Assembly: GCA_903861645.1 (NCBI GenBank)
Contig: CAIOVE010000037.1
Coordinates: 1 to 64,000 of the forward strand
DNA: 64,000 bases
Source of the DNA: an uncultured Hyphomicrobiales bacterium
Lineage (GTDB): Bacteria; Pseudomonadota; Alphaproteobacteria; Rhizobiales; Beijerinckiaceae
Direction of reading: 5' to 3'
The position numbers and the translations under genes were made by a program. Positions 11,244-54,950 of the stretch are shown in pieces (the first letter of the stretch is position 1; each line of letters opens with the position of its first letter). Under the pieces are notes generated by a model that was not told the origin of the DNA, did not search any database, and saw only the letters and a list, made by a program, of their open reading frames with translations.

Positions 11244-11254
11244 GCCCTGCTCCC

Positions 11255-13500: not shown

Positions 13501-13513
13501 TGCGACGGCCGAC

Positions 13514-13543
13514 TGATCCATTCGCTTTTCCGGCGCGTAACAG
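13514..13543 (+). promoter_or_regulatory. Predicted autoregulatory ECF promoter of the sigma/ChrR operon
   Basis: TGATCC (13514-13519), 18 bases, TAACAG (13538-13543). The -35 is exact and the -10 keeps TAA. The -35 faces the opposing -35 at 13495-13500, giving an inverted repeat GGATCA-N13-TGATCC shared by both arms. Transcription should begin near 13550. Confidence 0.6.
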
Positions 13544-13616
13544 GTGCATGAATGTCATCGCTTTCGACCATCAGATCCGGAGGATGCCGCGTTCGGCCCG
13601 CGCGAGGGTCAGCGCG

Positions 13617-33533: not shown

Positions 33534-33542
33534 GCGACTCTC

Positions 33543-35699: not shown

Positions 35700-35714
35700 A
35701 TAGAAAAAATCTAT
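35700..35714 (-). promoter_or_regulatory. Candidate LysR-type regulator binding site upstream of fdsG
   Basis: ATAG-N7-CTAT, a T-N11-A dyad of the LysR class, 95-109 bases ahead of the fdsG start and touching the stop codon of the LysR gene. No convincing -35/-10 pair was found in the remaining 108-bp gap. Confidence 0.45.
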
Positions 35715-36640
35715 CAAACTGGCGAGGCGAATAATGTGGGCGGTGATAGCACCCGTTCGGGATCAAGCGGTTCGACAATTGAAAAAAGGCTTCTGGCCAA
35801 GGGACTTGCCGGCTCCCTGTCCGCGATGATCAGCCCCATGGACCGGCTCGCGACGGGCGCGATCAATCGCAACGGCTTGGTGTTGCGGGGTATACCAAAG
35901 AAGTAGAGCAAGGGTCGCGGCACGATGCTCGACCAGTGGCCCGAGGCGGTGTGCGAGCAGAGATTGAAGATGGAATTGGTCTCGACCGCTGGAACCGGCG
36001 CCTTGCCGACCGATCGGAAGATGCCATCGATGATGCGACGGTTCTGCATGTCGGGCGTCAGCAGGCAGAGCGGCGCGTCGGCCGCCTCAGCCCAGGTGAT
36101 TTCCTCCCGATCCGCGTAGGCCCCGTTGAGCGAGGTCAGAAAGGCGTAGGTCTCGGCGTAGACCGGCTTCGACCGCACCGAGGGCAGCGGTTCACTGTCG
36201 AGATAGGTGACGCCCGCCTCCAGTTCGAAATTCTCGATGCCGCGGAGGATTTCAATCGAGGTCAGCGACAGCACCGTCACGGACACCCTGGGATAGCGCG
36301 CGTAAAATGGCGCGGTCAGATGCGAGACGACCGGCAAGGCGGTCGGCACGGCCCCGATGCGCAGGCGCCCCGTCAGGCCCCGGCCGAGTTCGGCGAGCCC
36401 CTGATTCATGGCCTCGCATTCGGCGAGCGCGCGCTTGGCGTGCTCCAGCACCACCTGCCCCTCCGGCGTGAACCCGTTGAACCGGTGCCCGCGCTCGACG
36501 ATGGGCACGCCGAGCTCATCCTCCAGATTGCGGATGGCGGCCGACAGGGTCGGTTGCGACACATGCGCGACGGCGGCGGCGCGGCCAAAGTGCTTCTCGC
36601 GCGCCAGCGCCACCAGATAGGCGAACTGTTTCAGGACCAC
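35714..36640 (-). CDS. LysR family regulator, probable activator of the fds operon
   Basis: A 308-residue LysR protein. The N-terminal winged helix-turn-helix is FAYLVALAREKHFGRAAAVAHVSQPTLSAAIRNLEDELGVPIVER, followed by the inducer-binding domain (GRLRIGAVPTALPVVSHLTAPF). It lies upstream of fdsG on the same strand, whereas LysR genes are more often divergent. GTG start at 36640, 8 bases after GGAGG. Formate or a C1 metabolite is a likely effector by context only. Confidence 0.9.
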   Translation of the reverse strand: MVLKQFAYLVALAREKHFGRAAAVAHVSQPTLSAAIRNLEDELGVPIVERGHRFNGFTPEGQVVLEHAKRALAECEAMNQGLAELGRGLTGRLRIGAVPTALPVVSHLTAPFYARYPRVSVTVLSLTSIEILRGIENFELEAGVTYLDSEPLPSVRSKPVYAETYAFLTSLNGAYADREEITWAEAADAPLCLLTPDMQNRRIIDGIFRSVGKAPVPAVETNSIFNLCSHTASGHWSSIVPRPLLYFFGIPRNTKPLRLIAPVASRSMGLIIADREPASPLARSLFSIVEPLDPERVLSPPTLFASPV

Positions 36641-38367: not shown

Positions 38368-39567
38368 TCAGTAGGATCGGCGCGGCCCGGCGCTGACGAC
38401 GAGAAAAATGACGGTCGCCAGCGTCATCAGCGCGCAGTTGACCATGATGTCCGCCGTATGCGCGCCGGTGAAATCGTCGAGCGCGCCAGCCACCACCGGC
38501 CCGAACACGAAGCCAACGTCGCCGAAGGTGCGCTGCATCCCCATGCCCGAGCCATAGCGCTCCCGCGGCAGGCAGGAGATGGTGAAGGCGCTGATCGCCG
38601 GATAGCTGATGCCGCCGCCAATGCCGAAGATCACGATGGCGAACCAGAACATCGCCTGCGAGGCCGCGATGTAGAGCAGCAGCAACCCGCCGACCGTCAT
38701 CACCGTCGAGGCGCCGACGACGCCCCGCGCGCCGAACCGCTCGATCAATCCCGGCGAGGCCGGAAGGACGGCGAAATTGACCAGCGCGCAGAAGGTCAGC
38801 GCGCCGCCGATGACGCCAACGTCGAGGTGCAGCGTTTCCGCCGCGATCTGCGGCAGGAGCTGGTAAAGACTGACAACGCGCGTGAAGAAAACAATGCACG
38901 TCAGGATGCAGACGGCGGTGAACGGCGCGCTCATCAACCCGACGCGGCTGACCGACGAGGGCAGCGGCTTGCGCGCCTCGGTCTTGTCCAGCGTATCCTC
39001 GAAGGAGGCGACCGCCGTCAGCGACGCCAGCAACCCAACCGCCATATAGGCCCAGAAGGGCGCGGCGTAACCGAACCATTGCGCTAGCAAGCCGCCCGCG
39101 CCCGGTCCGATGGAGGCGCCCAGTTGCAGCGCCGCCTGATACAGCGCCATGTTGCCGACGCGATACTGCGGCGGACTGATGTCGGCGATCGCCGCGAGGG
39201 AGGCGGTCATGTAGACGCCGGACCCGACGCCCTGAACGAAGCGCCAGACCAGCAGCATGTTGAAATCCTGCGTCATGGCCGCCATGGCTGACGAACCCGC
39301 GACGATGAGCGGCCCGACGAACAGCATGGGGCGTCGACCGACGCGCTGGGAGAGAATGCCCGCCGGCAGGTTCGCCAGCAGGCGCCCAACCCCGAACAGG
39401 GTGATCAATGTGCCAACGAGCGTGCTGGCGACCCCGAAGGTCTGCGCATACAGCGACAGGATGGGCGACACCACGCCATTGCCCATCATGATCAGCGCGA
39501 TCATGAGCAACAACGGCGCGAGGCGTTTCTCCCGCCGAAGCGGCTCGAAGTAATTGAACGTTATCAT
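38368..39567 (-). CDS. MFS transporter (drug/aromatic efflux or uptake type)
   Basis: A 399-residue, 12-helix MFS protein (LAPLLLMIALIMMGNGVVSPILSLYAQTFGV; A-motif GILSQRVGRRPMLFVGP). It is divergent from the class II aldolase gene with 127 bp between the starts, so the two may share control. Substrate is not readable from sequence; uptake of an aromatic acid for the neighbouring catabolic genes is possible. Confidence 0.85.
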   Translation of the reverse strand: MITFNYFEPLRREKRLAPLLLMIALIMMGNGVVSPILSLYAQTFGVASTLVGTLITLFGVGRLLANLPAGILSQRVGRRPMLFVGPLIVAGSSAMAAMTQDFNMLLVWRFVQGVGSGVYMTASLAAIADISPPQYRVGNMALYQAALQLGASIGPGAGGLLAQWFGYAAPFWAYMAVGLLASLTAVASFEDTLDKTEARKPLPSSVSRVGLMSAPFTAVCILTCIVFFTRVVSLYQLLPQIAAETLHLDVGVIGGALTFCALVNFAVLPASPGLIERFGARGVVGASTVMTVGGLLLLYIAASQAMFWFAIVIFGIGGGISYPAISAFTISCLPRERYGSGMGMQRTFGDVGFVFGPVVAGALDDFTGAHTADIMVNCALMTLATVIFLVVSAGPRRSY

Positions 39568-39694: not shown

Positions 39695-40444
39695 ATGAAC
39701 CAGCATGCGGCGCCCGCGCGCTCCAACAGCGATCTGCAATTGCGCATGAAGGTCGCGGCCTGCACCCTGTTGCTGGTCAAGGAAAAAATCATGAACTACA
39801 GCGGGCACGTCAGCGCCCGCCTGCCCGGTCGCGACGCCTTTCTGATCCAGCCGATCGACGTGCCGCGCTCGGGCCTGCGCCCCGACCACCTGCTGATTTG
39901 CGATTATGACGGCAAGATTCTTGAAGGGCCCGAAGGCCAGCGCGCGCCAGCCGAGGTTTCCCTTCATGGCGAAATCCTGCGCTCGCGCCCCGATGTTAAT
40001 TCGGTCGCGCATTTCCATCACGATCTCACCAACTCGTTCACGCTGGTCGAGAACGTGCCGCTGCGCGTGGTCAAGAACCACGCCATCCGCTGGAAAAGCG
40101 GCATCCCCGTTCACGCCGATCCCGCCCACGTCGCCAACGCCGAGCTCGGTCAGGCCATCGTGCGCACGCTGGGGCCGCACCACGCCATGCAGATCCGCGC
40201 GCATGGACAGGTGATCACCGCCGAGTCGGTCGAGGCCGTGCTCAACGACTCCATCCACTTCGTCGAGAACGCGCAGGCGATGTATCACGCCGCCGCGCTG
40301 GGCAAGCTGGCGCCCCTGACGGACGCCGACATTGCCTCGTTCGAGAAGTATTTCCAGCGCGGACGGCACGTCAACAAACTCTGGCGCTTCTATGTGGAAA
40401 GCGCGCAGACCGACGGCGTCATTCCCGGCGACTGGGACATCTGA
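39695..40444 (+). CDS. Class II aldolase/adducin family protein
   Basis: A 249-residue zinc-dependent class II aldolase/adducin protein. The family features are NYSGHVSARLPGRDAFLIQP, the Glu in PAEVSLHGEILRSRPDVNSVAHFHHDLTNSF with the His-x-His metal site, and a third His in IRAHGQVITAESVEAVL. Members include fuculose-phosphate aldolase but also the 3,4-dihydroxyphthalate decarboxylase PhtC, which fits the phthalate-like genes downstream. GGAGGA precedes the ATG. It is 117 bp ahead of the EutA-like gene. Confidence 0.87.
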   Translation: MNQHAAPARSNSDLQLRMKVAACTLLLVKEKIMNYSGHVSARLPGRDAFLIQPIDVPRSGLRPDHLLICDYDGKILEGPEGQRAPAEVSLHGEILRSRPDVNSVAHFHHDLTNSFTLVENVPLRVVKNHAIRWKSGIPVHADPAHVANAELGQAIVRTLGPHHAMQIRAHGQVITAESVEAVLNDSIHFVENAQAMYHAAALGKLAPLTDADIASFEKYFQRGRHVNKLWRFYVESAQTDGVIPGDWDI

Positions 40445-40451
40445 AGCCACG

Positions 40452-40481
40452 TTGGACTTTGCCCGCGGCCGCGGCTAGAGA
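40452..40481 (+). promoter_or_regulatory. Candidate promoter of the EutA-like operon
   Basis: TTGGAC (40452-40457), 18 bases, TAGAGA (40476-40481). The palindrome at 40487 then falls on the expected transcription start. Confidence 0.35.
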
Positions 40482-40486
40482 ATGAC

Positions 40487-40498
40487 TTAGAGAGCTAA
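40487..40498. promoter_or_regulatory. Candidate MarR operator (TTAG-N4-CTAA), copy 1
   Basis: TTAG-AGAG-CTAA, 64 bases before the EutA-like start. The same core with the same 4-base spacer recurs at 46513-46524 before the Rieske oxygenase, and a MarR gene lies at 48888. Confidence 0.5.
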
Positions 40499-40500
40499 AT

Positions 40501-40520
40501 CGCCGGGGCATGTCCCGGCG
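40501..40520 (+). other. Leader hairpin of the EutA-like operon
   Basis: CGCCGGG / CCCGGCG, a perfect 7-bp GC stem with a 6-base loop, directly after the operator and 42 bases before the start codon. Confidence 0.35.
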
Positions 40521-40561
40521 GAAGGCCGCGCGCCAACGCCAGCGCCTTCCTGGGGGTGGGG

Positions 40562-42067
40562 ATGCACGATTTGGACTTCGATCACGAACACGCCCCGTTG
40601 AGCGACGCCGACAAGGCGGCCATGGCCAAGTTCATCTGGAGCCAGGAATCGGTCGAGCTCAACACCATCGGCATCGACATCGGCTCGTCGACCTCGCACC
40701 TGCTGTTCGCCAAGGTCACGCTGCAACGGCAGGCGCAGGGATTGTCCAGCCGCTTCCTCGTCACCAATCGCGAGGTGGTCTGGCGCTCGCCCATCATGCT
40801 GACGCCCTTCCTGAAGGACGGCACGATCGACGCGCACGAACTCGATCACTTCATCCACGACGCCTACAAGGCCGCGGGCCTGAAACGCGCCGACATCGAT
40901 AGCGGCGCGGTGATTCTCACCGGCGAGGCGATCAAGCGCACCAACGCTCGCGCCATCGACGAACTCTTCGCCGATCAGGCCGGCAAGTTCGTTTGCGCGA
41001 CGGCCGGCCACAAGCTGGAATGCACGCTCGCCGCCCATGGATCGGGCGCGGTCGCGCTTTCGAGGCAACGTGACGGATGCGTGCTGCACGTCGACATCGG
41101 CGGCGGCACCACCAAGCTCGCGTTGATCGACAAGGGCGTCGTGCGTTCCGTCGCGGCCTTCGCGGTCGGCGGCCGCCTGCTCGCCCAGGACGACAAGGGC
41201 GATTGGACCCGCGTCGACCAGTCCGCCTGGCTGGTGGCGCGCGAACTCGGCATCGGCACGGACGCCAGAACGCTGGCGGAGCCGGCCAATCGCGAAAGGA
41301 TCGCGGCGCGGCTCGCCGACGTCGCCATCGCGGAAATCTTCGGCGACGAACTCGACGCGCTCGGCAAGTCGCTGCAACTGACCGAACCGCTGAACCGCGC
41401 GACCGCGCCAACGGCCATCACTTTCTCGGGCGGCGTGTCCGAATATATCTTCGACACGGAGCCGCGCGATTTCGGCGACATCGCCCGCCTGCTCGCGCAA
41501 GGCATTCGCAAGCGCCTGTCGGAGCGCCGCGGCCTGCCGGTCGTCGATCCCGGCAACCGCATCCGCGCGACCGTCATCGGCGCCTCGCAGTTCACCGTGC
41601 AGGTCAGCGGCAAGACGATCTATCTGTCGAACCCCGATTGCCTGCCTGTTCACAACGTGCCGGTGGTGCGCATCAATCCCGACATGTCCGGCGCCATCGA
41701 CGCCGCCGAGGTCGCCCGCGCGATCACCGAGAAAACGGCGCAACTCGACATCGACCCCGCTGGCCGGCTGGCGATCTCCTTCACCTTCGAGGGCGATCCG
41801 GAATATTCGCGCCTGTTCGCGCTGGCCGACGGCGTGCGCCGCGCGACCACGCCCGGCGGCAAGCGGCGCGACATGCTGCTGTTGATGATCGACGGCGACA
41901 TCGGCAAGACCATGGGCAACCTGCTGCATCGCGAACTCGATCTGCCCGGCGATATCGTCTCGATCGACGGCGTGCAGTTGCAGGAACTCGACTACGTCGA
42001 CATCGGCGAGATGATCAATCCGCCGGGCGTCGTGCCGGTCGTCATCAAGTCACTGCTGTTTTCATAA
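40562..42067 (+). CDS. EutA-like reactivating factor (actin/Hsp70-fold ATPase)
   Basis: A 501-residue protein of the EutA family. EutA is the chaperone-like ATPase that swaps damaged cobalamin out of ethanolamine ammonia-lyase. The ASKHA nucleotide motifs are clear: phosphate-1 IGIDIGSSTSHLLFAK, phosphate-2 VLHVDIGGGTTKLALIDKG, and adenosine TFSGGVSEYIF. No EutB/EutC or other B12 enzyme is in the window, so its client is unknown and it may serve another enzyme or have another role. The first gene of an operon with a bicupin, a decarboxylase-like protein and nadC. The ATG at 40562 is chosen over a GTG 6 bases upstream. Confidence 0.85.
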   Translation: MHDLDFDHEHAPLSDADKAAMAKFIWSQESVELNTIGIDIGSSTSHLLFAKVTLQRQAQGLSSRFLVTNREVVWRSPIMLTPFLKDGTIDAHELDHFIHDAYKAAGLKRADIDSGAVILTGEAIKRTNARAIDELFADQAGKFVCATAGHKLECTLAAHGSGAVALSRQRDGCVLHVDIGGGTTKLALIDKGVVRSVAAFAVGGRLLAQDDKGDWTRVDQSAWLVARELGIGTDARTLAEPANRERIAARLADVAIAEIFGDELDALGKSLQLTEPLNRATAPTAITFSGGVSEYIFDTEPRDFGDIARLLAQGIRKRLSERRGLPVVDPGNRIRATVIGASQFTVQVSGKTIYLSNPDCLPVHNVPVVRINPDMSGAIDAAEVARAITEKTAQLDIDPAGRLAISFTFEGDPEYSRLFALADGVRRATTPGGKRRDMLLLMIDGDIGKTMGNLLHRELDLPGDIVSIDGVQLQELDYVDIGEMINPPGVVPVVIKSLLFS

Positions 42068-42087
42068 AAAACCAAGGGAGAGGAACC

Positions 42088-43203
42088 ATGAACGATCTCG
42101 TCACTCACCGCTACGGCATCGACCCCTACCTCGACTGGGTCGAGAAGGAAGGCCTGCCGGTCGCCGAGGATTACGGCATCGATCTTTTCAAGGTCGAAAT
42201 GCGCCATTGGGACCGCGTGGGCGTCAAGGGCGCGGCGGTGCATCTGAAAGGCCGCGGCGACTTCTGCAACATGTTCCTGATGGAGCTGCCGCCGGGCGGC
42301 TCGACCACGCCGCAGCGCCATCTCTACGAGGACGTCTATTACGTGCTCGAAGGCTCGGGCTCGACGCAGATCGAACTCGCCGACGGCTCCAAGCGCAGCT
42401 TCGAATGGGGCCCCAAGAGCCTCTTCGCCATACCGCTCAACGCGAAACATCGTCACTTCAATTCGAGCGGCCGCGAACGCGCCCTGCTCGTCACCACCAC
42501 GGATCTGCCGATGGTGATGAACACGTTCCACAACGAGAAATTTATCTTCGACAACACGTTTGATTTCGACGAGCGCACCGGCAAGGGCAAGCACTTCACC
42601 GGCGAGGGCGATCTCATAACGGTCAAGCCGGGCAACCATATGTGGGAGACGAATTTCGTTCCCGATCTCGCCGCCATCGAACTCAAGACCTGGGGCGACC
42701 GCGGCGCCGGCGGCACCAACATCATGTTCGTGCTGGCCGACGGCACCATGCACGCGCACATCTCCGAAATGCCGGTCGGCACCTACAAGAAGGGCCACCG
42801 CCACGGCCCTGGCTTCCACGTCATGTGCGTGGTCGGGCACGGCTATTCGCTCCTCTGGTTCGACAAGGAAAAGGATTTCCTGCGCATCGACTGGAAGCAT
42901 GGCGTCGTCTTCCCGCCCGCCGATCAGCAGTTCCACCAGCACTTCAACGCCAGCGCCGTGCCGGCGCGCTATCTCGCCACCGGCGTCGGCGGCCTGCGCT
43001 ACCCGCTGACCACCCAGAACCGTCGTTCGCTCATCGGCCTCAAGCCCGGCGAGAATGGCGCGGTCTCGACCAGCATCAAGGAAGGCGGCGATCAGGTCGA
43101 ATACGAGGACCAGGACGCGCGCATCCAGCAAATCTGGCTGGAGGAGACGCGCAAGCACGGCGTCGACCAGAAGATGGACAAATTCTTTCCCGCGAAGGCC
43201 TGA
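42088..43203 (+). CDS. Two-cupin-domain protein
   Basis: A 371-residue bicupin. The first cupin has PPGGSTTPQRHLYEDVYYVLEGSGSTQIE (His and Glu metal ligands), the second has PVGTYKKGHRHGPGFHVMCVVGHGYSLLWF with a His-rich metal site and QQFHQHFNAS. Such proteins include ring-cleaving dioxygenases (gentisate, salicylate), but size and motifs do not fix the reaction. A 20-base gap after the EutA-like gene and AGAGGAACC before its ATG show co-transcription. Confidence 0.8.
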   Translation: MNDLVTHRYGIDPYLDWVEKEGLPVAEDYGIDLFKVEMRHWDRVGVKGAAVHLKGRGDFCNMFLMELPPGGSTTPQRHLYEDVYYVLEGSGSTQIELADGSKRSFEWGPKSLFAIPLNAKHRHFNSSGRERALLVTTTDLPMVMNTFHNEKFIFDNTFDFDERTGKGKHFTGEGDLITVKPGNHMWETNFVPDLAAIELKTWGDRGAGGTNIMFVLADGTMHAHISEMPVGTYKKGHRHGPGFHVMCVVGHGYSLLWFDKEKDFLRIDWKHGVVFPPADQQFHQHFNASAVPARYLATGVGGLRYPLTTQNRRSLIGLKPGENGAVSTSIKEGGDQVEYEDQDARIQQIWLEETRKHGVDQKMDKFFPAKA

Positions 43204-43209
43204 ACACGC

Positions 43210-44193
43210 ATGTCGAAAATCCAGCTGACGCTCGCCTGTGGCGATTACGAGATCACGCGGCCGCTCATCGATGGAACGGTCGCGCCCGACGGCGTCGACC
43301 TCACCGTCCTGACCGATCTCGATTCAACCACGCGTCACTGGCGTTTTCTGCGCAACCGAGAGTTCGACGTGGCGGAGCTTTCCGCCTCGTCGTTCCTGCT
43401 GGCCAACGAGGTCGGCCTGCCGATCGTCGCGATTCCCGTCTTTCCGCATCGGCGCTTCCGGCACGAATTCGTCTTCATCAACACGAAAAAGGGTATTCGC
43501 GGACCGAAGGATCTGATCGGCAAGACCATCGGCGTGAAATCGTTTCAGGCGACCGCGATCGTCTGGATGCGCGGCATCCTCGAACAGGAATACGGCGTGC
43601 CGCACAAGTCGATCAACTGGGTCGCCGAACTCGACGAGGACGTTGAATTCGTTCCACCCGCCGACTTGCGGATTTCGCGCGTGCCGGACGACAAGACGCT
43701 GGAGGGCATGCTGGTCGACGGCCAACTCGACGCCTGCCTGCATACCGACCTGATCGATCCCTACATGGACGGTCATCCCAACGTCGCCCGCCTGTTCGAC
43801 GACTACAAGGCCGAGGAAGTCGCCTTCTTCAAGAAGACCGGCATCTTCCCCATCATGCACGTGGTCGGCATCAGGAAGGACGTCGCCGAGCGCCATCCGT
43901 GGCTGCCGATCGAGCTTTACAAGGCCTTCGATCGCGCCAAGGCCGCCGGCATGAAGCGCATGTTCAATCCGCGCGTCGCGCCGCTCGCCTGGTGGCGGCA
44001 CGCGATGGAGGAGCAGGAAAAGCTGCTCGGCCCGGACCCGTGGGAGTACGGGTTGACCGACCGCAACCGCAAGATTCTCGAGACGCTGACCCACTATTCA
44101 CACAGCCACGGAATGCTTAAGAAGCGTCCGGCGCTGGAGGATCTGTTCCTCGACGTGTCGCAGGGCCGCAAGCGCGGCGGCCACCGAGTCTAG
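43210..44193 (+). CDS. 4,5-dihydroxyphthalate decarboxylase-like protein (Pht5 family)
   Basis: A 327-residue protein with the substrate-binding-protein fold but no signal peptide (MSKIQLTLACGDYEITRPLIDGTVAPDGVDLTVLTDLDSTTRHWRFLRNREFDVAELSASSF). This pattern and the length match the 4,5-dihydroxyphthalate decarboxylase family, which produces protocatechuate from dihydroxyphthalate. With Rieske oxygenase, reductase and cis-dihydrodiol dehydrogenase-like genes near by it would complete a phthalate-type upper pathway. Direct reading as an ABC binding protein is the alternative; no permease is nearby. Confidence 0.75.
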   Translation: MSKIQLTLACGDYEITRPLIDGTVAPDGVDLTVLTDLDSTTRHWRFLRNREFDVAELSASSFLLANEVGLPIVAIPVFPHRRFRHEFVFINTKKGIRGPKDLIGKTIGVKSFQATAIVWMRGILEQEYGVPHKSINWVAELDEDVEFVPPADLRISRVPDDKTLEGMLVDGQLDACLHTDLIDPYMDGHPNVARLFDDYKAEEVAFFKKTGIFPIMHVVGIRKDVAERHPWLPIELYKAFDRAKAAGMKRMFNPRVAPLAWWRHAMEEQEKLLGPDPWEYGLTDRNRKILETLTHYSHSHGMLKKRPALEDLFLDVSQGRKRGGHRV

Positions 44194-44217
44194 CAACACC
44201 CGACCCAGGAGGCCACG

Positions 44218-45075
44218 ATGGCCATGACGTTCTTCAACCCGATCTATCTGGAAAACGCCGTGCGCGCCGCGCTCGACGAGGATCTTGGGCAAGCCGGCGA
44301 CATCACCTCGCTCGCGACCATCCCGGCGGGCCGGGTCGCGACGGCGGTCATGGCGGTGCGCAAGCCCGGTGTCGTCGCCGGCCTGCCGGTCGCCGAGGCG
44401 ACCTTTCGCGCGATCGATCCCTCGCTCAAGTTCGAGATGCTTGCGCTGGACGGCGCGCATGTGCCGGGCAACCGCACGCCGGTGGCGCGCATCAGCGGCG
44501 ACGCGCGCGCGATCCTCACCGCGGAACGCGTCGCGCTCAACTACATGACCCGCCTCTCGGGCGTCGCGACGTTGACGGCCAAGCACGTGGCGCTCGTCGC
44601 CCACACCAACGCGAAAATCTGCTGCACGCGCAAGACCACGCCGGGCCTGCGCGCGCTCGAGAAATACGCCGTGCGTTGCGGCGGCGCGATGAACCACCGC
44701 TTTGGCCTCGACGACGCCATTCTCATCAAGGACAACCATGTCGCCGTGTGCGGCGGCATCCGGCAGGCGCTGCGCGCGGCGAAACTGGCGGCCGGCCATC
44801 TCGTCAAGATCGAGATCGAGGTCGACACGCTCGATCAGTTGCGCGAGGTCGTCGACGAGGGCGCGGATTTCTGCCTGATCGACAACATGACCATCGACCA
44901 GATGCGCGAAGCCGTGAAGATCGCCGCCGGCCACGTCAAACTGGAGGCCTCGGGCGGCGTCAGTCTCGACACGGTCAAGGCCATCGCGGAAACCGGCGTC
45001 GATCTCATTTCTTCGGGCGGGATCACCCATTCGGCGCCCATCCTCGACGTCGGCCTCGATATCGAGATCGCCTGA
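44218..45075 (+). CDS. nadC: Nicotinate-nucleotide pyrophosphorylase (quinolinate phosphoribosyltransferase)
   Basis: NadC converts quinolinate and PRPP to nicotinate mononucleotide and CO2. The 285 residues show LNYMTRLSGVATLT, the PRPP/quinolinate residues TRKTTPGLRALEKYAVRCGGAMNHRFGLDDAILIKDNH, and VKLEASGGVSLDTVKAIAETGVDLISSG. Active-site residues look normal. No nadA or nadB is present, and it is the last gene of the EutA-like/bicupin/Pht5-like operon, which is an unusual place. It may be a second copy adapted to this pathway. AGGAGG precedes the ATG. Confidence 0.93.
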   Translation: MAMTFFNPIYLENAVRAALDEDLGQAGDITSLATIPAGRVATAVMAVRKPGVVAGLPVAEATFRAIDPSLKFEMLALDGAHVPGNRTPVARISGDARAILTAERVALNYMTRLSGVATLTAKHVALVAHTNAKICCTRKTTPGLRALEKYAVRCGGAMNHRFGLDDAILIKDNHVAVCGGIRQALRAAKLAAGHLVKIEIEVDTLDQLREVVDEGADFCLIDNMTIDQMREAVKIAAGHVKLEASGGVSLDTVKAIAETGVDLISSGGITHSAPILDVGLDIEIA

Positions 45076-45093
45076 TCGGTTCGACTTAAAGTC

Positions 45094-45136
45094 AAAACGC
45101 CCTCCCGCCTGACCGGCGGGAGGGCGTTTTGTTTTC
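45094..45136. terminator. Strong bidirectional intrinsic terminator
   Basis: A perfect 16-bp stem AAAACGCCCTCCCGCC / GGCGGGAGGGCGTTTT (45094-45109, 45115-45130) with a 5-base loop and T-runs on both sides. It ends the nadC operon and the converging Rieske gene. Confidence 0.92.
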
Positions 45137-45157
45137 AGGACCAATCGGAGGGTGGCG

Positions 45158-46474
45158 TTATTCCGCCGCCGTGTTGCGCGCGGCGGCGCGGGCGTTCCAC
45201 GCCAGTTCCTCGTCCGAGCAGCCCAGCGTGCGCCAGTCGTAGCCCTTCGCGACGATGCCCTCGAAGGATTGCAGCTTCGATTGAGGCACGCGGCCCTTGT
45301 GCGCGCCGATCGCCTCGCCGCCCGCGGCGAAGGTTTGCGCGGCCTCGACCATCTGGCGACGGAACTCGACGATCGCGAGATCGCTCGCGCCGAGGATTTC
45401 GTCGCCGCGGTCGGCGATCGCGCCAATGGTTTCCCACATGACGACATCCTGATTGGGAATGCCGGGAATGCCGGTGAAATTCCCCAGCTTCATCGACTTG
45501 CGGTCCTGCAGGTAGTTATTCTCGTACGTGCGGTTCTTGACGAAGGTCTTGTCGACGTCGACGCCGACCTGCATGTGCAGGAAGTTGCGCCATGTCGCGA
45601 CATCCGGCGTCGTCGCCGCCTCGCCCCACGCGATGAAATGGAACGCGGTATGCGTATCGTCCACCGGCACGTGCAGGATGGCGATGTTGTACATGTTGTT
45701 CGAGGGTATCTGCACCGTGTAGGGCGCGATGAACAGCGTGGTGCGAACGTAATCCTTCGTTGTCGCGTCCTTGATCGGCCGGCGGATCGCCGAATAGCGG
45801 AAGCCGAACGCGGTGCGGTCAACGACCAGCCGCGGCGCCTTGTCCGTCGACGGTCGCAACCAGTTCTCGTTGGTCGCCTGCGCGCCCGCGACGGGCGCCG
45901 GCACCATGTCGGACGAATGCAGGCTGGAGGAATGGGCGGAGTCGATCGCGCCTTCCAGAATCTGCGCCCAGTTGCAATCGACAATCATCCTGGCGATGGC
46001 GATCTTCGTGTCGGCCTTCGGCTGGAAAACCGGCGCCTCGAACTCGGGCTTTTCGTCGGCGGGACCCATCCAGACCCAGATGAAGCCCGCCTGCTCGTGC
46101 ACGGGATAGGCCTTGATCTTGACCTTCTCGCGCAGCGGGCTTTCGGCCGGCTCGCTCGACATGTCCACGCAGTTGCCGTTCACGTCGAATTTCCAGCCGT
46201 GATAGAGGCAACGCAAGCCGCATTCCTCGTTGCGCGCGAAGAACAGCGACGCCTTGCGATGCGGACACATCTCATCAATAACGCCGACCTTACCCTCGGA
46301 ATCGCGGAAGGCGACGAGGTTCTCGCCCAGCAGCCTGACGCGCACGGGATCGCAATCGGGTTCGGCGAGTTGCTCGGAGAGGCATGCAGGCAGCCAGTGC
46401 CGACGCATGATGCCGCCCATGGGCGCGTCGCCCTCGACCCGGGTCAGAAGATCGTTTTCGGTCCTGGTCAGCAT
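45158..46474 (-). CDS. Rieske ring-hydroxylating oxygenase alpha subunit (phthalate 4,5-dioxygenase-like)
   Basis: A 438-residue oxygenase, close to the size of phthalate 4,5-dioxygenase (Pht3). The Rieske site is Cys70-x-His72 (CPHR) and Cys89-x2-His92 (CLYHGW). The mononuclear iron site is in DCNWAQILEGAIDSAHSSSLHS, with His181, His186 and the bridging Asp178. It lacks a beta subunit, as expected for the phthalate/vanillate class. The start lies 36 bases from the palindrome at 46510. Substrate likely an aromatic carboxylate, not proved. Confidence 0.9.
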   Translation of the reverse strand: MLTRTENDLLTRVEGDAPMGGIMRRHWLPACLSEQLAEPDCDPVRVRLLGENLVAFRDSEGKVGVIDEMCPHRKASLFFARNEECGLRCLYHGWKFDVNGNCVDMSSEPAESPLREKVKIKAYPVHEQAGFIWVWMGPADEKPEFEAPVFQPKADTKIAIARMIVDCNWAQILEGAIDSAHSSSLHSSDMVPAPVAGAQATNENWLRPSTDKAPRLVVDRTAFGFRYSAIRRPIKDATTKDYVRTTLFIAPYTVQIPSNNMYNIAILHVPVDDTHTAFHFIAWGEAATTPDVATWRNFLHMQVGVDVDKTFVKNRTYENNYLQDRKSMKLGNFTGIPGIPNQDVVMWETIGAIADRGDEILGASDLAIVEFRRQMVEAAQTFAAGGEAIGAHKGRVPQSKLQSFEGIVAKGYDWRTLGCSDEELAWNARAAARNTAAE

Positions 46475-46509
46475 GATTCCTCCTTGCGCGGGGCGGCGAT
46501 CGAGAGCAT

Positions 46510-46527
46510 ATCTTAGTGATCTAAGAT
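46510..46527. promoter_or_regulatory. Candidate MarR operator (TTAG-N4-CTAA), copy 2
   Basis: ATCTTAG-TGAT-CTAAGAT, perfect 7-base arms around 4 bases, in the 204-bp divergent gap between the Rieske and reductase genes. It contains the same TTAG-N4-CTAA core as 40487-40498. Confidence 0.6.
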
Positions 46528-46596
46528 TTTGGATACACCATCCGTCCGCGACTGTCGAGTGCCACCCGGCCCGATGGCGGGCGGCGCCGGACAGGC

Positions 46597-46625
46597 TTGA
46601 ACGCCGCCGGCTACCCTTCTAGGTT
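46597..46625 (+). promoter_or_regulatory. Candidate promoter of the reductase-dehydrogenase genes
   Basis: TTGAAC (46597-46602), 17 bases, TAGGTT (46620-46625), 54 bases before the reductase ATG. Confidence 0.35.
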
Positions 46626-46678
46626 CCGCGCGCGCCGGACCTCGCGGGGGGCGAGGGCACGCGCGCAACGGAACAACC

Positions 46679-47641
46679 ATGTCGACCGATACGCTTTTCA
46701 CGCCGCTGCGCATCCTCTCGAAAGAGGAAATCGCGCGGGATATTTTCCGTTTTGAACTGGCGCGCGCCGACGGCGGTGAATTGCCGGAATTCACGGCGGG
46801 CGCCCATGTCGCGATCCGCGCGCCCAATGGGCTTGAACGCAAATACTCCCTCTGCAACGACCCGGCCGAGCGTGATCGCCATGTCATCGCCATCAAGCGA
46901 GAGGCAAATGGCGAGGGCGGCTCGCGCTCCATGGTCGACGATACGGTCGTCGGCGCAGATGTCGAGGTTGGCGCGCCGCGCAACGATTTCCCGATGGCGG
47001 CGAACATTCCGAACGTGCTGCTGATCGCCGGTGGCATCGGCATCACGCCGATCCTGTCGATGATCCGCCACCTGAAGTCGACCGGCGCCGCGCGCTTCAA
47101 GCTTTATTATCTCACGCGAGAGAAGGAGATGACCGCCTTTCGCGAGGAACTGTCCGCGCCCGAGTTCAATGGGCAGGTCGTCATTCACCACGACCATGGC
47201 GACCCCGACAGAATGTTCGATCTGTGGCCGGTGCTCGAAAAGCCCATGGGCCGCCATCTCTACTGTTGCGGCCCGCGGCCCCTGATGGAGACCGTGCGCG
47301 ACATGTCCGGCCACTGGTCGAGCGCCGCGGTTCATTTCGAGGATTTCGGCTCCTCGAAGCCCGCCCACAAGGAGGAGGACCGCCTCTTCAACGTGACGCT
47401 GGCGAAAAGCGGCCGCGTTATCGAGGTGCCGGCGAATGTATCCATTCTCGACGCGCTGCGCGCCAATGGCCTCAACGTGTCGAGCTCCTGCGAGAGCGGC
47501 ACCTGCGGCACCTGCCGGACCCGACTGGTTTCGGGCGATGTCGAGCACCGCGATCTCGTGCTCGCCGAGCACGAGAAAGCCAGCCAGATCATGATCTGCG
47601 TTTCCCGCGCCGCGAGCGGCGATCTCGTGCTGGATATGTGA
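46679..47641 (+). CDS. Class IA oxygenase reductase (phthalate dioxygenase reductase/VanB type)
   Basis: A 320-residue reductase, electron donor for the Rieske oxygenase. Domain order is FMN (RKYSLCNDPAERDRHVIAIKRE), NAD(P)H (NVLLIAGGIGITPILSMIRHL, YCCGPRPLMETVR) and C-terminal plant-type [2Fe-2S] (CESGTCGTCRTRLVSGDVEHRDLVL). This FMN-NAD-ferredoxin order is that of phthalate dioxygenase reductase. It overlaps no gene; the dehydrogenase starts 1 base later. Confidence 0.92.
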   Translation: MSTDTLFTPLRILSKEEIARDIFRFELARADGGELPEFTAGAHVAIRAPNGLERKYSLCNDPAERDRHVIAIKREANGEGGSRSMVDDTVVGADVEVGAPRNDFPMAANIPNVLLIAGGIGITPILSMIRHLKSTGAARFKLYYLTREKEMTAFREELSAPEFNGQVVIHHDHGDPDRMFDLWPVLEKPMGRHLYCCGPRPLMETVRDMSGHWSSAAVHFEDFGSSKPAHKEEDRLFNVTLAKSGRVIEVPANVSILDALRANGLNVSSSCESGTCGTCRTRLVSGDVEHRDLVLAEHEKASQIMICVSRAASGDLVLDM

Positions 47642-47642
47642 G

Positions 47643-48860
47643 ATGAACGATGCACGCGCCACGGATACACGCGTGCTGCGCCTTGGCGTGGCGGGCATCG
47701 GCCGCGCCTTCTCGCTGATGCTGCCGACGCTTGTCGGCGATCCCCGCCTCCGGATCGTCGCGGGCGCCGATCCCCGGCCCGAGGCGCGCGCCCGTTTCGC
47801 GGCGGATTTCAACGCGCGCGCCTTCGAGACCGTCGAGGCGATGTGCGAAAGCCCCGACGTCGATGTCGTCTATATCGCCTCGCCGCATCAGTTTCATCGC
47901 CCGAACGTCGAGGCCGCGGTCCGCGCTGGCAAGCACGTGCTGGTTGAAAAGCCGATGGCGCTGGCGCTCGACGATTGCGAGGCGATGATCGAGGCCGCCG
48001 AAAAGGCGGGCGTGGTCATGGTCGTCGGCCATAGCCATGGCTTTGATCGTCCCATCGCGCGCGCGCGCGAACTGGTCGCGAGCGGCGCCTTTGGCGGCCT
48101 GCGCATGATCAACGCCATGCAGTTCACCGATTTCCTGTATCGGCCGCGCCGCCCGGAGGAACTCGACACCGCCGCGGGCGGCGGCGTCATCTTCAATCAG
48201 GCGCCGCATCAGGTCGACAACATCCGAGTCATCGCCGGCGGCATGGCGCGCAGCGTGCGCGCGGGCGCGGGCGTCTGGGATCCCTCGCGCGCGACGGAAG
48301 GCGCCTATTCCGCCTTCATGACATTCGAGAACGGCGCCTTCGCGACCATGACCTACAGCGGCTACGCGCATTTCGACTCGGATGAATTCTGCGAATGGAT
48401 CGCCGAAAGCGGCCTGCCGAAAGACCCCGCGCGCTATGGCGCGACCCGCGCCGCGCTGGAAGGCCTGTCGCCGGCGGAGGAACTCGCCCTCAAGGCCGCG
48501 ACCAATTACGGCGGCGAGCGCTACACGCCGCCCCACAAGGCCGAGGACGCCGCCCGCCGCTGGCACCAGCATTTCGGCCTGCTGATCGCCTCGTGCGACG
48601 GCGCCGACCTGCGGCCGCGTCCCGACGGAATCATGATCTACGCCAATCGCGAGCGGCGCTTCGAACAGCTCGAACGCCCGCGCGTCCACCGCGCGGAGGT
48701 CGTCGACGAATTGCACGCGGCCATCGTCGAGGGGCGCAAGCCCCTGCACGACGGGCGCTGGGCAATGGCGACGATGGAAGTATGTTATGCGATCATCGAA
48801 TCCTCCCGTTCTGGACGGGAGGTTTTTCTGTCGCGGCAATGCGGTACGCCAACGGACTGA
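47643..48860 (+). CDS. Gfo/Idh/MocA oxidoreductase, cis-dihydrodiol dehydrogenase-like (Pht4 type)
   Basis: A 405-residue NAD(P)-dependent oxidoreductase. The N-terminal Rossmann motif is LRLGVAGIGRAFSLMLPTL, followed by ASPHQFHRPNVEAAVRAGKHVLVEKPMALALDDCEAM with the catalytic EKP lysine and the conserved NQAPHQVDNIRV. Length and context match 4,5-dihydro-4,5-dihydroxyphthalate dehydrogenase. An intrinsic terminator lies inside its last codons (48802-48827). Confidence 0.85.
   Translation: MNDARATDTRVLRLGVAGIGRAFSLMLPTLVGDPRLRIVAGADPRPEARARFAADFNARAFETVEAMCESPDVDVVYIASPHQFHRPNVEAAVRAGKHVLVEKPMALALDDCEAMIEAAEKAGVVMVVGHSHGFDRPIARARELVASGAFGGLRMINAMQFTDFLYRPRRPEELDTAAGGGVIFNQAPHQVDNIRVIAGGMARSVRAGAGVWDPSRATEGAYSAFMTFENGAFATMTYSGYAHFDSDEFCEWIAESGLPKDPARYGATRAALEGLSPAEELALKAATNYGGERYTPPHKAEDAARRWHQHFGLLIASCDGADLRPRPDGIMIYANRERRFEQLERPRVHRAEVVDELHAAIVEGRKPLHDGRWAMATMEVCYAIIESSRSGREVFLSRQCGTPTD
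48802..48827 (+). terminator. Intrinsic terminator inside the 3' end of the dehydrogenase gene
   Basis: CCTCCCGT / ACGGGAGG (8 bp, 5-base loop) then TTTTT, ending 33 bases before the stop codon. The conserved family core ends at about this point, so the last residues are a read-through tail. Confidence 0.6.
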
Positions 48861-48887
48861 CGCGCGCACGAAAGGAATTGGGGAGAC

Positions 48888-49505
48888 ATGCCAAGCGCCA
48901 AGCCTGCCCTCGTCGATCCGAGCATGCAGGCCGTCATCCGTCATTGGCGGGAATCCGTCCCCGAAGACCGTCTGGCGCATCTGCTCAAGGACGCGACGCG
49001 CGGCCTGACCCGCGCGCTGCAACTGCGCCTCGCCGAACATGACGTGTCCTTTGGCCACTGGACGTTCCTGCGCATCCTCTGGGACGCCGATGGCATCACC
49101 CAGCGGGATCTCAGCGAACGCGCGGGGCTGATGGAGCCCACGACCTATTCCGCGCTGCTGAGCATGGAAAAGCTCGGCTATGTCGAACGCCGACGCCTGC
49201 CCGACAGCCGCAAGAAGGTCTATGTCTTTCTGACCGCGACGGGGCGCGCCCTGCGCGCCAAGCTGGTGCCGCTGGCCGAGGAGGTCAACGCCATCGCGGT
49301 CGAGGGCGTCAAGCCGGAAATCATCGCGGCCGCGCGCGACATGCTGCTGACCATGATCCACAATCTGGCCGAGAACGAACTCGCGCAGGTCGCCGACCAA
49401 AGGCGCATTCCCTCGACACGCGAAATGTCGAGCCGCATCGACGCGGCGGGCGCGGCCAAGATCGTGCGCGCGCGGCGGAGCGGCAAAGCGCCGCCCGCCG
49501 GGTGA
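48888..49505 (+). CDS. MarR family transcriptional regulator
   Basis: A 205-residue MarR protein with the winged helix ITQRDLSERAGLMEPTTYSALLSMEKLGYVERRRLPDSRKKVYVFLTATGRAL. It is longer than usual by an N-terminal extension and a basic C-terminal tail (KIVRARRSGKAPPAG). It sits right after the oxygenase genes and is the obvious candidate to bind the TTAG-N4-CTAA palindromes at 40487 and 46510. The effector is probably the aromatic substrate. GGGGAGAC precedes the ATG. Confidence 0.9.
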   Translation: MPSAKPALVDPSMQAVIRHWRESVPEDRLAHLLKDATRGLTRALQLRLAEHDVSFGHWTFLRILWDADGITQRDLSERAGLMEPTTYSALLSMEKLGYVERRRLPDSRKKVYVFLTATGRALRAKLVPLAEEVNAIAVEGVKPEIIAAARDMLLTMIHNLAENELAQVADQRRIPSTREMSSRIDAAGAAKIVRARRSGKAPPAG

Positions 49506-49561
49506 CGGCGGCGCCCCCGCCTGTTATCGAACCCCCACAACATGTTCTCCTGGGAGGAAAA

Positions 49562-51196
49562 ATGGTCGCGCGCGCGAGTTACGACTACATCATCGTGGGA
49601 GCTGGCTCCGCTGGCTGCGTTCTGGCCAATCGCCTCACCGAGGATGGCGGCGCGACGGTGCTGTTGCTCGAAGCCGGCGGCCGCGACCGCGATCCGCTGA
49701 TCCATATTCCCCTCGGCATGGGCAAGATCCACGATCTCGGCCTGCATAACTGGGGCTATCACACCGAGCCAGAGCCCAATCTGGGCGACCGCCGCATCGA
49801 GGCCTCGCGCGGCAAGGTGCTGGGCGGCTCCTCCTCCATCAATGTGATGGCCTATACGCGCGGCCATCGCGGCGACTACGACCGCTGGGCGCAGAAGGGC
49901 TGTCAGGGCTGGTCCTACGCCGACGTGTTGCCCTATTTCCGGCGTGGCGAAACCTTCGCCGACGGTGGCGACACGTGGCGGGGCGGCGACGGGCCGATCA
50001 AGGTCGAATTCGCCCGCACGCGCGATCCCCTTTTCGACGCGTGGTGCGAGGCCGCGCGCAATCAGGGACTGCCGGTCACCGACGATTACAATGGCCAGCA
50101 GGGCGAGGGCTTCGGCCGCAGCCAGTACACCATCGGCAATGGCCGCCGTTCGTCCTCGGCGGTCGCCTATCTCCATCCCGCCCGCAAGCGCCGCAACCTG
50201 ACGGTGGAAACCGGCGCCCATGTCACGCAGGTGCTGATGAAAGGCACCACGGCGGTCGGCATCGCCTGGGCCAAGGACGGGCTTAGATTCGAGGCGGAAG
50301 CCAGCCAGGAGACGATTCTCTGCGGCGGCACGTTCAATTCGCCGCAACTGCTCATGCTCTCGGGCATTGGCCCGGCGGCGCATCTGAAATCGGTCGGCGT
50401 CGATCCGCTGGTCGATCTGCCCGTCGGCCGCAATCTTCAGGACCATCTGGCCGTGCTGAACATGTACACGCGCCCTACCAATCCCAGCCCCTTCCGCGAC
50501 ACCATGCGCTTCGACCGCATGGCCATCGCGATGATCCGGGCGTTTCTGACTGGCACGGGACCGGGCGTCGTTGTCCCCGGCGGATTGCACGCCTTCATCA
50601 AGACCAATCCCGAATTCGCCGTTCCAGATATTGAATTCATGTTCCGCGGTCTGCCGACCAACGCCCATCTGTGGTTTCCGGGCGTCAAGGCCGCCTATGA
50701 GGACGGCTATGGCATTCGCCCGGCCCTGCTCCACCCCGACAGCCGCGGCGAGATCCTGCTGGGATCGTCCGATCCCTTCGACACGCCACGCATCAAATAC
50801 AACTTCTTCTCCGCGCCCAACGATCTGCCCAAGCTGCGCGAGGGCTTCAAGCTGGCGCGACAGATCGCCGCCGACAAGGCGCTCGCGCCCTATCGCGGGG
50901 TCGAAAAATCGCCCGGCGACAAGGTGCGGACCGACGCCGAGATCGAGGCGTGGATCAGGAAGACCGTCATCACCGCGCACCATCCGGCGGGCACCTGCGC
51001 CATGGGCATCACGCCCGAAAGCGTGGTCGATCCGCAACTGCGCGTGCGTGGCGTCGAGAAACTGCGCGTGGTCGACGCCTCGGCGATGCCGGACATGGTC
51101 GGCGCCCATATCAACGCCTGCGTGCTGATGATGGCGGAAAAGGCGGCGGACATGATCCGCGGTCGCGAAGCTCTCGCTCCCGCCCTGAGCGCTTGA
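49562..51196 (+). CDS. GMC-family FAD oxidoreductase (choline/alcohol dehydrogenase type)
   Basis: A 544-residue glucose-methanol-choline oxidoreductase. It has the FAD motif YIIVGAGSAGCVLANRLTEDGGATVLLLEAG, the two GMC signatures (GGSSSINVMAYTRGHRGDYDRWA and GGTFNSPQLLMLSGIGP), and the C-terminal active-site His in TAHHPAGTCAMG with the Asn in VGAHINACVLMMAEKAAD. It probably oxidises a primary alcohol or polyol; the substrate is unknown. The ATG at 49562 follows GGGAGG; the longer frame upstream lacks a ribosome site. Confidence 0.9.
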   Translation: MVARASYDYIIVGAGSAGCVLANRLTEDGGATVLLLEAGGRDRDPLIHIPLGMGKIHDLGLHNWGYHTEPEPNLGDRRIEASRGKVLGGSSSINVMAYTRGHRGDYDRWAQKGCQGWSYADVLPYFRRGETFADGGDTWRGGDGPIKVEFARTRDPLFDAWCEAARNQGLPVTDDYNGQQGEGFGRSQYTIGNGRRSSSAVAYLHPARKRRNLTVETGAHVTQVLMKGTTAVGIAWAKDGLRFEAEASQETILCGGTFNSPQLLMLSGIGPAAHLKSVGVDPLVDLPVGRNLQDHLAVLNMYTRPTNPSPFRDTMRFDRMAIAMIRAFLTGTGPGVVVPGGLHAFIKTNPEFAVPDIEFMFRGLPTNAHLWFPGVKAAYEDGYGIRPALLHPDSRGEILLGSSDPFDTPRIKYNFFSAPNDLPKLREGFKLARQIAADKALAPYRGVEKSPGDKVRTDAEIEAWIRKTVITAHHPAGTCAMGITPESVVDPQLRVRGVEKLRVVDASAMPDMVGAHINACVLMMAEKAADMIRGREALAPALSA

Positions 51197-53633: not shown

Positions 53634-53960
53634 TTATTCTTCCTCGCCGAAACGATTGGCGACAAGCGCGGCGATCGCGTCGAGCGCCGCCTGCGCCTGC
53701 GGGCCGCGGGCGGCCACGTTGATGGTCGAGCCGAGACCGGCGCCGAGCGTCAGAATGCCCATGATCGACACGCCGCCAACCGTCTCGCCGCAACGCGTGA
53801 CGAAAACCTCGGCGTCGAATTTTTCCGCGCATTGCACGAATTTCGCGGTGGCGCGCGCGTGCAGCCCCTTGCGGTTGACGATCTGGAGATCGCGCGACAC
53901 GGCCCCGTCGATGACGGGCGGCGGCGGGCAATCCTCTTCGAAATCGTCCTGATCGTTCAT
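53634..53960 (-). CDS. HPr-like phosphocarrier protein
   Basis: A 108-residue HPr with a longer N-terminus than usual (FEEDCPPPPVIDGAVSRDL). Phospho-acceptor His34 lies in NRKGLHARATAKFV and the regulatory Ser65 in GGVSIMGILTLG, the target of HprK. It is part of a PTS chain without sugar transport, used for regulation. It overlaps the EIIA gene by 4 bases. Confidence 0.95.
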   Translation of the reverse strand: MNDQDDFEEDCPPPPVIDGAVSRDLQIVNRKGLHARATAKFVQCAEKFDAEVFVTRCGETVGGVSIMGILTLGAGLGSTINVAARGPQAQAALDAIAALVANRFGEEE

Positions 53961-54358
53961 TTGACGGTCAAAATCCGGCTGGCCACGGAAATATATTTGC
54001 GACCGGCCTCCTGCGCCTGAACGACCGCCTGCTCCAGCGGCGCGGTTTCCCGCACGGAGGCCAGCTTGATGAGCATGGGCAGGTTGATGCCCGCGACCAC
54101 GTCGACCTTGGCGCTTTCCATGACGGAGATCGCGAGATTGGACGGCGTGCCGCCAAACATGTCGGTCAACAGGATGACTCCCGCGCCCGTGTCGACGGAA
54201 TGGACGGCCGCGAGGATATCCTTCCGGCGCTGCTCCATGTCGTCCTCGGGACCGATGGTCACCGTTTCGAGCTGGCTTTGACGGCCAACCACATGCTCAA
54301 GCGCGGCGCGGAATTCCGTCGCCAAGCGCCCATGCGTCACCAGCACCATTCCGATCAT
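53957..54358 (-). CDS. PTS EIIA component, mannose family (ManX-like)
   Basis: A 133-residue EIIA-Man domain (MIGMVLVTHGRLATEFRAALEHVVG), with phospho-His9 in VTHG and the LLTDMFGGTPSNLA block. No EIIB/C/D genes are present, so this is a regulatory phospho-relay member. The start at 54358 matches the family N-terminus; the frame continues upstream only by chance. Confidence 0.95.
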   Translation of the reverse strand: MIGMVLVTHGRLATEFRAALEHVVGRQSQLETVTIGPEDDMEQRRKDILAAVHSVDTGAGVILLTDMFGGTPSNLAISVMESAKVDVVAGINLPMLIKLASVRETAPLEQAVVQAQEAGRKYISVASRILTVK

Positions 54359-54479
54359 GGGATCAGACCGTCCACGGCAGCGAGTTCGAGGCGAAACGCG
54401 CCCCGCTGGGAAAAGGAGCGCCATATTGTGCAACGCGGGGCATTTGGCAAGAGAAACCTGTGGAAGACCCCTAACGGGA

Positions 54480-54950
54480 TCATACGCGCGACAGGCGATT
54501 CAGCACCCGCAGCGCGCCTTCCATCGGCCCGACATCGCGCGCGAGGCGGATGCGGGGAATGGAGACGCCTTCGATCGCGTCGGCCTCGTCGCCCGCCTCC
54601 GGCAGGCGCGGCGGACGGCCGTCCGGCGTGTCGACAATATCGAGATCGACGATGCATCGAACATTGGCCGCGCCCTCGTGCGCCACGGCAAGCAAGCCGG
54701 TGCCGCGCTCCTCGATGAGACCAGCGATTTGCGGCGGCGCGCGCGCGATGATCCGTCCGGCCGCGACGGAAAGCCACACCCGGTCATCCGCCACCAACCG
54801 CGCGAACAGCCCGCGCGCCAGCCCCTCGGCGATCAGCGCGCGCGCGAGACGGCTTTTGCCCGCGCCAGAACCACCCCGCACGAGCACGCCGGCCTCGCCG
54901 ATCGCCACGATCGTCGCGTGAAGGGAAAGGGGCTTGACGGCGCCGGTCAT
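54480..54950 (-). CDS. hprK: HPr kinase/phosphatase, short alphaproteobacterial form
   Basis: A 156-residue catalytic-domain-only HprK. Walker A is GGSGAGKS (26-33) after ATIVAIGEAGVLVRG, with LVADDRVWL and the His-free DIVDTPDGRPPRLPEAG further on. The N-terminal domain of Firmicute HprK is absent, which is the norm in alphaproteobacteria. It adjusts Ser-phosphorylation of HPr and links carbon state to ChvG/ChvI, whose genes are upstream with a 4-base overlap. Confidence 0.93.
   Translation of the reverse strand: MTGAVKPLSLHATIVAIGEAGVLVRGGSGAGKSRLARALIAEGLARGLFARLVADDRVWLSVAAGRIIARAPPQIAGLIEERGTGLLAVAHEGAANVRCIVDLDIVDTPDGRPPRLPEAGDEADAIEGVSIPRIRLARDVGPMEGALRVLNRLSRV

Follow-up and report, generated by a model that had tools for sequence, protein, structure and literature searches.

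In the described pht/oph clusters for o-phthalate, a plastic-related acid, such as those of Novosphingobium pCAR3 and Polaromonas pPNAP04, a Rieske oxygenase of the phthalate 4,5-dioxygenase type is encoded together with a Gfo/Idh dehydrogenase, the Pht5 protein (annotated there as 4,5-dihydroxyphthalate decarboxylase), a MarR regulator and nadC. We have analysed a stretch of 64,000 nucleotides from an uncultured Hyphomicrobiales bacterium assigned to the Beijerinckiaceae (contig CAIOVE010000037.1; this whole stretch is the window, and its genome is denoted G000), in which an island at 39695..51196 likewise carries all of these genes. Unlike the island, the described clusters have no match for its EutA-like ATPase, bicupin, class II aldolase and GMC oxidoreductase. 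As a whole, we consider it reasonably probable that the island is a phthalate cluster which has drawn in nadC together with an accessory module formed by the EutA-like protein and the bicupin. The pathway core is known, while the accessory EutA-bicupin module is new.

An earlier note on this DNA had named ten genes in the island, and all of them were recovered at their places by an open reading frame listing and family searches. They are given here with the adjoining transporter gene and an inverted repeat.

38368-39567, minus strand: MFS transporter, probable uptake permease, divergent from the aldolase gene (PF07690, 197.3 bits)
39695-40444, plus strand: member of the class II aldolase/adducin family, perhaps a decarboxylase or aldolase (PF00596, 94.7 bits)
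40562-42067, plus strand: EutA-like ASKHA ATPase with an N-terminal MHDLDFDHEH motif (PF06277, 378.6 bits)
42088-43203, plus strand: bicupin (Cupin_2, 36.8 bits)
43210-44193, plus strand: Pht5-like protein, putative 4,5-dihydroxyphthalate decarboxylase (NMT1, 21.6 bits; PDB 9JP7; no NCBIfam match)
44218-45075, plus strand: nadC, quinolinate phosphoribosyltransferase (TIGR00078, 315.7 bits, cut-off 198.4)
45077-45147, no strand: inverted repeat, possible bidirectional terminator (33-nt arms, 79% complementary)
45158-46474, minus strand: Rieske oxygenase of phthalate 4,5-dioxygenase type, 438 aa (LigXa_C, 490.4 bits; Rieske, 66.2 bits)
46679-47641, plus strand: phthalate dioxygenase reductase, 320 aa (PDB 2PIA, 389.7 bits)
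47643-48860, plus strand: Gfo/Idh-type 4,5-dihydroxyphthalate (dihydrodiol) dehydrogenase, 405 aa (PDB 7WZD, 480.1 bits)
48888-49505, plus strand: MarR regulator (PF01047, 36.6 bits)
49502-51196, plus strand: GMC oxidoreductase (Pfam and NCBIfam family searches)

The probable phthalate pathway core

In a sequence search against the PDB, the best solved match of the oxygenase is 7FJL/7V25/7V28 (586.8 bits; the entry says Rieske protein), which we take to be the phthalate dioxygenase of Comamonas. For the reductase and the Gfo/Idh protein the best solved matches are phthalate dioxygenase reductase (2PIA) and 4,5-dihydroxyphthalate dehydrogenase (7WZD), with the scores given above, and for the Pht5-like protein it is 4,5-dihydroxyphthalate decarboxylase (9JP7, E 1.2e-61, 211.9 bits). 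Judged by homology, every step from phthalate to protocatechuate thus has a candidate enzyme in the island. The oxygenase and its reductase, the dihydrodiol dehydrogenase, the Pht5-type decarboxylase and the MarR regulator would constitute an aerobic o-phthalate 4,5-dioxygenase route ending in protocatechuate.

For the dioxygenase PDO-KF1, PMC12445078 gives S182 and R207 as key for phthalate, with R207 and R244 contacting its carboxylates, and gives V178 and L198 as the replacements of S182 and R207 in isophthalate dioxygenase. In a gapless stretch of the alignment with 7FJL, all three residues (S182, R207 and R244) are present in the window oxygenase, and they are kept in the 10 island rows (8 distinct genomes, two pairs of rows being from the same genome). 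These residues and the best PDB relatives bear out the suggestion of the earlier note that the island is phthalate-like, and we regard it as very probably a catabolic cluster of the o-phthalate (pht/oph) type. There is no need for the new N-heteroaromatic route also considered there, given that the o-phthalate-binding residues of the oxygenase are retained and that each step to protocatechuate has a homologue.

A more distant Rieske oxygenase is encoded in a second type of EutA-bicupin cluster (loci L080 18450-19736, L103 18718-19950 and L117 5859-7091). Its rows from these three clusters show V and a gap at the positions of S182 and R207, and the row from L101, a bicupin locus without EutA, shows S and a gap. 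The V at the first position can be likened to the one reported for isophthalate dioxygenase in PMC12445078, and the oxygenase of L080, L103 and L117 may act on another aromatic acid.

As a control, a plasmid collection was searched with the window oxygenase, which gave 45 records at E <= 1e-100; ten of them, chosen across genera from the 25 listed, were inspected by tblastn with the window proteins over ~10 kb on either side of the oxygenase. Homologues of Pht5 and MarR were found in all ten clusters, those of the reductase and of the Gfo/Idh dehydrogenase in nine each, and nadC in five (Acidovorax, Novosphingobium, Thalassospira, Polaromonas and Phaeobacter), while the EutA-like protein, the bicupin, the class II aldolase and the GMC oxidoreductase had no match in any of the ten. 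Therefore the core is ordinary and nadC is a frequent companion, while the EutA-bicupin pair, the aldolase and the GMC gene are unusual. This agrees with the earlier view that the EutA-like protein and the bicupin are foreign to the known pathway; the same was said of NadC, and half of the plasmid clusters contradict it.

Besides the island, G000 encodes LigA and LigB (PF07746, 117 bits; PF02900, 273 bits) and has two matches to the intradiol dioxygenase family, and therefore cleavage of protocatechuate needs no bicupin. With these other candidates in the genome, the bicupin becomes a less probable choice for a missing ring-cleavage enzyme. The class II aldolase scores 67.8 bits against the model of the 3,4-dihydroxyphthalate decarboxylase PhtC (NF053537), below its cut-off of 200.

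Linkage of nadC to the cluster

A precedent is ophE of Burkholderia cepacia DBO1, a nadC that lies beside phthalate genes as in the island. While ophE is a second, phthalate-induced copy, the island gene is the sole quinolinate phosphoribosyltransferase match over the family cut-off in G000; that is, the linkage to phthalate genes is present in G000 and the second copy is not. Chang and Zylstra, in work of 1999 on ophE, reportedly observed that phthalate inhibits quinolinate phosphoribosyltransferase.

Among 31 genomes of the genus that were searched, 27 have a nadC match, in a single copy in 26 and in two copies in one. In 16 of these 27 the distance between nadC and a window-type EutA gene on the same contig is 25 nt to 7.1 kb; in the other 11, nadC is on another contig or the genome has no window-type EutA. 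In a maximum-likelihood tree, 20 nadC rows of the genus form one clade (99/97) among the copies of the family. The five plasmid rows neither join this clade nor form one group, although their long branches make the placement unsure. The grouping with the family's copies, together with the single copy, identifies the island nadC on sequence grounds as a vertically inherited housekeeping gene. An origin from a horizontally acquired OphE clade was rejected, as the genus rows cluster apart from the plasmid ones.

We consider it likely that nadC is functionally linked to the phthalate cluster. The housekeeping gene would have joined the island, the likeliest reason being that phthalate, as a mimic of quinolinate, puts a load on the synthesis of nicotinamide adenine dinucleotide (NAD). 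The presence of nadC in phthalate clusters would then be explained as a recurring link between NAD synthesis and the breakdown of a compound that mimics quinolinate.

If the island had simply grown beside a chromosomal nadC, the two would be neighbours by history and share no metabolic link. A vertically inherited gene that is the sole copy in nearly all genomes of the genus is what such a history predicts, and L139 and L140 retain EutA, bicupin and nadC with no Rieske genes in their 18-20 kb. Yet half of the plasmid clusters hold nadC, in rows that do not make up one clade, and in L153 nadC stands within 10 kb of a Rieske set in the absence of EutA and bicupin, which also counts against a tie of nadC to EutA. 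Moreover, nadA and nadC lie within 5 kb of each other in 59 of 64 genomes of the family outside the genus that have both genes, whereas this is so in 0 of 4 within the genus. Hence we find purely historical neighbourhood rather doubtful.

The nadC linkage could also suggest a pyridine dicarboxylate, for instance quinolinate, as the substrate in place of phthalate, with nadC as its outlet. Mo-hydroxylase-type genes do lie beside EutA-bicupin genes in L003, L004, L010, L012 and L014, and a review (PMC13040137) describes a phthalate 3,4-dioxygenase active on quinolinate and cinchomeronate. However, the island has no Mo-hydroxylase of that kind, its nadC groups with the housekeeping copies of the family, the phthalate-contact residues are kept and the best relatives are phthalate enzymes, so that this reading appears very improbable to us, and we retain phthalate as the substrate.

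The EutA-like protein and the bicupin

EutA is the reactivating factor of ethanolamine ammonia-lyase, in which it replaces damaged cobalamin. The island protein shares with EutA the full-length PF06277 domain and, in alignment, the conserved ASKHA ATPase motifs. It differs in that it misses all four NCBIfam EutA cut-offs (at best 315.1 against 598), has an extra His/Asp motif at the N terminus and a cupin as partner, and comes from a genome, G000, that encodes 4 full EutA-like proteins and gave no match for EutB. Of 11 genomes of the genus, 2 have EutB; one member, G107, is the reverse of G000, with EutB present and no EutA-like or bicupin match. The AlphaFold model of the EutA-like protein has a mean pLDDT (predicted local distance difference test) of 79.5, with residues 1-12 under 50, and its structure search returned generic ASKHA matches only.

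The N-terminal His/Asp motif, searched as a regular expression, occurs in 44 of 58 EutA-like proteins; of the 14 others, 3 have a near variant of it. In addition, five EutA-like paralogues have 18-30 His among their last 60 residues, resembling the tails of metallochaperones:

L078, 11188-12924
L080, 9191-10906
L084, 8430-10169
L089, 10486-12222
L103, 9774-11552

No invariant Cys was seen in the EutA alignment, which counts against an Fe-S activase of the BcrA/BadF type; this candidate was rejected also by its Pfam score (22.3 against a cut-off of 31.5). A role in anti-phage defence was dismissed too, as PADLOC gave no match for the EutA-like, bicupin or Pht5-like protein.

The closest described bicupins, the gentisate/salicylate 1,2-dioxygenases, are only 14% identical to that of the island. 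They hold iron in the N-terminal cupin, while the invariant His of the island bicupin (H237, H239, H283 and H285) are all in the C-terminal one. It scores 18.2 bits against the gentisate 1,2-dioxygenase model TIGR02272, far from the cut-off of 442.1. For the predicted bicupin fold, the top rows of VIA are gentisate/salicylate dioxygenases, with oxalate decarboxylases tied (within 1 Z).

A first scan of 84,980 species genomes by short peptide patterns gave 19 EutA loci. For the pair count we have taken 61 distinct EutA-family genes on longer loci and removed two truncated rows as well as the G017 copy (L092, whose 20 kb show no cupin), which leaves 58; five duplicate EutA rows are outside this number, as are the short loci L001, L002, L022-L077, L095-L100, L121-L132, L135 and L136, the locus L108, in which no genes were called, and the window itself. 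A cupin is the next gene in 49 of the 58, on the same strand in 46; in six the closest cupin lies at a distance of 2-4 genes, and none was seen in three (L081, L104 and L141). Outside the genus the cupin is adjacent in 15 of 16 (L010-L017, L019, L020, L093, L094 and L117-L120), and in Streptomyces L019 a cupin fragment of 93 residues lies three genes from EutA. Counting fragments, 30 of the 31 genus genomes have 2-5 EutA and 4-18 cupin matches each, G107 having neither. EutA occurs in 25 plasmid records, four of which have a 60-80% identical form; the same four have a full bicupin match. Across 349 genomes of the phylum, with the best few candidates per genome scored, EutA-family matches were found in five and the bicupin in the window genome only, a sample too thin for a co-occurrence statistic. 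A literature search found no paper that joins EutA with phthalate, or a reactivase with a cupin.

By analogy with EutA, the EutA-like protein with its initial His/Asp motif may load or exchange the metal of the bicupin at the expense of ATP, and the bicupin would use this metal to oxygenate or decarboxylate an aromatic carboxylate. We propose only tentatively that the protein serves the bicupin as such a metal loader or reactivating factor. It is equally tentatively that we see in the pair a new paralogous class of ATP-driven loader or reactivase of metal centres, where the fold of the B12-enzyme reactivases has been redeployed to cupin metalloenzymes independent of B12, each bicupin serving a different aromatic or heteroaromatic carboxylate. 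Should the upkeep of the cupin metal indeed be the task of the ATPase, the range of ASKHA reactivases would extend beyond B12 enzymes.

The close pairing and tight spacing would also fit a single ATP-consuming enzyme, composed of both proteins, whose reaction is the activation, decarboxylation or carboxylation of an aromatic carboxylate. ASKHA subunits act in acetone carboxylase, and several of the clusters have neighbours of decarboxylase type (Pht5-like, UbiX, Amidohydro_2 and Amdase). Nevertheless, the homology of EutA is to a reactivase, cupin matches exceed EutA matches in the genus, and ten loci, 4-20 kb in length, have bicupins without EutA (L101, L102, L105-L107, L109-L111, L113 and L114); from this excess and these EutA-free bicupins it follows that a shared helper fits better than a fixed subunit, and we judge the single enzyme unlikely. 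Either way, the two-protein module is uncharacterised, is expanded in one genus and lies beside several kinds of carboxylate clusters.

Neighbourhoods, conservation and adjoining genes

Neighbours were labelled by phmmer to seed proteins that had been assigned by Pfam. Outside the genus, Pht5-like genes accompany the pair in L010-L016 and L118-L120, and weakly in L093 and L094, but not in L017, L019, L020 or L117. Within the genus, clusters of the second type have them in L080, L084, L089 and L103; L080 and L103 also carry Rieske, ferredoxin and CobW genes, and Rieske genes are seen again in L117-L120. L079 and L083 show TctA, single cupins and amidohydrolases, with no Pht5-like or Rieske gene. 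The comparison of neighbourhoods suggested earlier has thus given a divided answer: the pair occurs with Pht5-like, Rieske or Mo-hydroxylase genes in several independent clusters, but with none of them in the stretches examined of L017, L019, L020, L079 and L083. In L105, L109 and L111, genes for transporters of the ABC or Tct kind adjoin the EutA-free bicupins.

In L117 (Phyllobacterium zundukense), a HoxN/NixA nickel/cobalt transporter gene and NikR (11473-13075) lie directly downstream of EutA-bicupin, and L015 has a NicO-like gene of 27.3 bits, just under the cut-off of 27.7. A nickel/cobalt dependence of the module was set aside and kept as a lead, since tblastn found no NixA/NikR relative in Sinorhizobium L118-L120, which share genes with L117, or in the other loci searched. 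Separately, L015 combines EutA-bicupin with a UbiX-like flavoprotein, two class III CoA-transferases and a class II aldolase (7838-14229), which recalls anaerobic phthalate genes.

Several observations weigh against our explanation of the island. The homology of the Pht5-like protein is moderate, and its identity as a decarboxylase is suggested by overall homology. The sole-copy nadC is unlike the second-copy ophE, and L139 and L140, as said, have no Rieske genes near their nadC. Among the 58 EutA genes, many belong to a single genus and do not count as independent; the EutA paralogues of 492, 506 and 530 residues, L019 and the rhizobial L117-L120 have no His motif; and nickel/cobalt or CobW neighbours occur in four loci only (L117, L015, L080 and L103). 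The island forms of L088, L137, L138, L142 and L148 are without Pht5, aldolase and GMC. Finally, in L153 the Rieske set and nadC occur without EutA-bicupin, so the pathway does not strictly require the module.

On the other side, relatives share the block. The same gene order is found in the metagenome-assembled genomes of L005-L008 and L018 at 57-92% protein identity (86-89% for the bicupin), so that the arrangement is not due to chance; L006, L008 and L018 are contigs from the genus of the window. The copy of L009 ends at a contig edge inside nadC, and L021 has the left part of the island only. The MFS gene, a transporter gene that the earlier note does not list, adjoins the island also in L005-L009, L018 and L021, and GMC is missing from other island forms in relatives. 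Genes in relatives were called by a home-made codon-usage caller, and their boundaries are approximate.

Gaps of 20, 6 and 24 nt separate the EutA-like, bicupin, Pht5-like and nadC genes, which would fit a single operon. For the EutA-like gene, a GTG at 40556 sits 6 nt upstream of the ATG at 40562, and it is the ATG that fits the start in relatives. The nadC and Rieske genes converge on the inverted repeat at 45077-45147; this repeat is absent from the output of the terminator scan.

Beside the island, genes resembling an NAD-dependent formate dehydrogenase (Complex1_51K and molybdopterin oxidoreductase) occupy 29631-35605 on the minus strand, with a LysR gene at 35714-36640; related genes are seen in several of the relatives' loci. 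At 53957-54950 on the minus strand, the translations of open reading frames read like PTS EIIA and HPr kinase.

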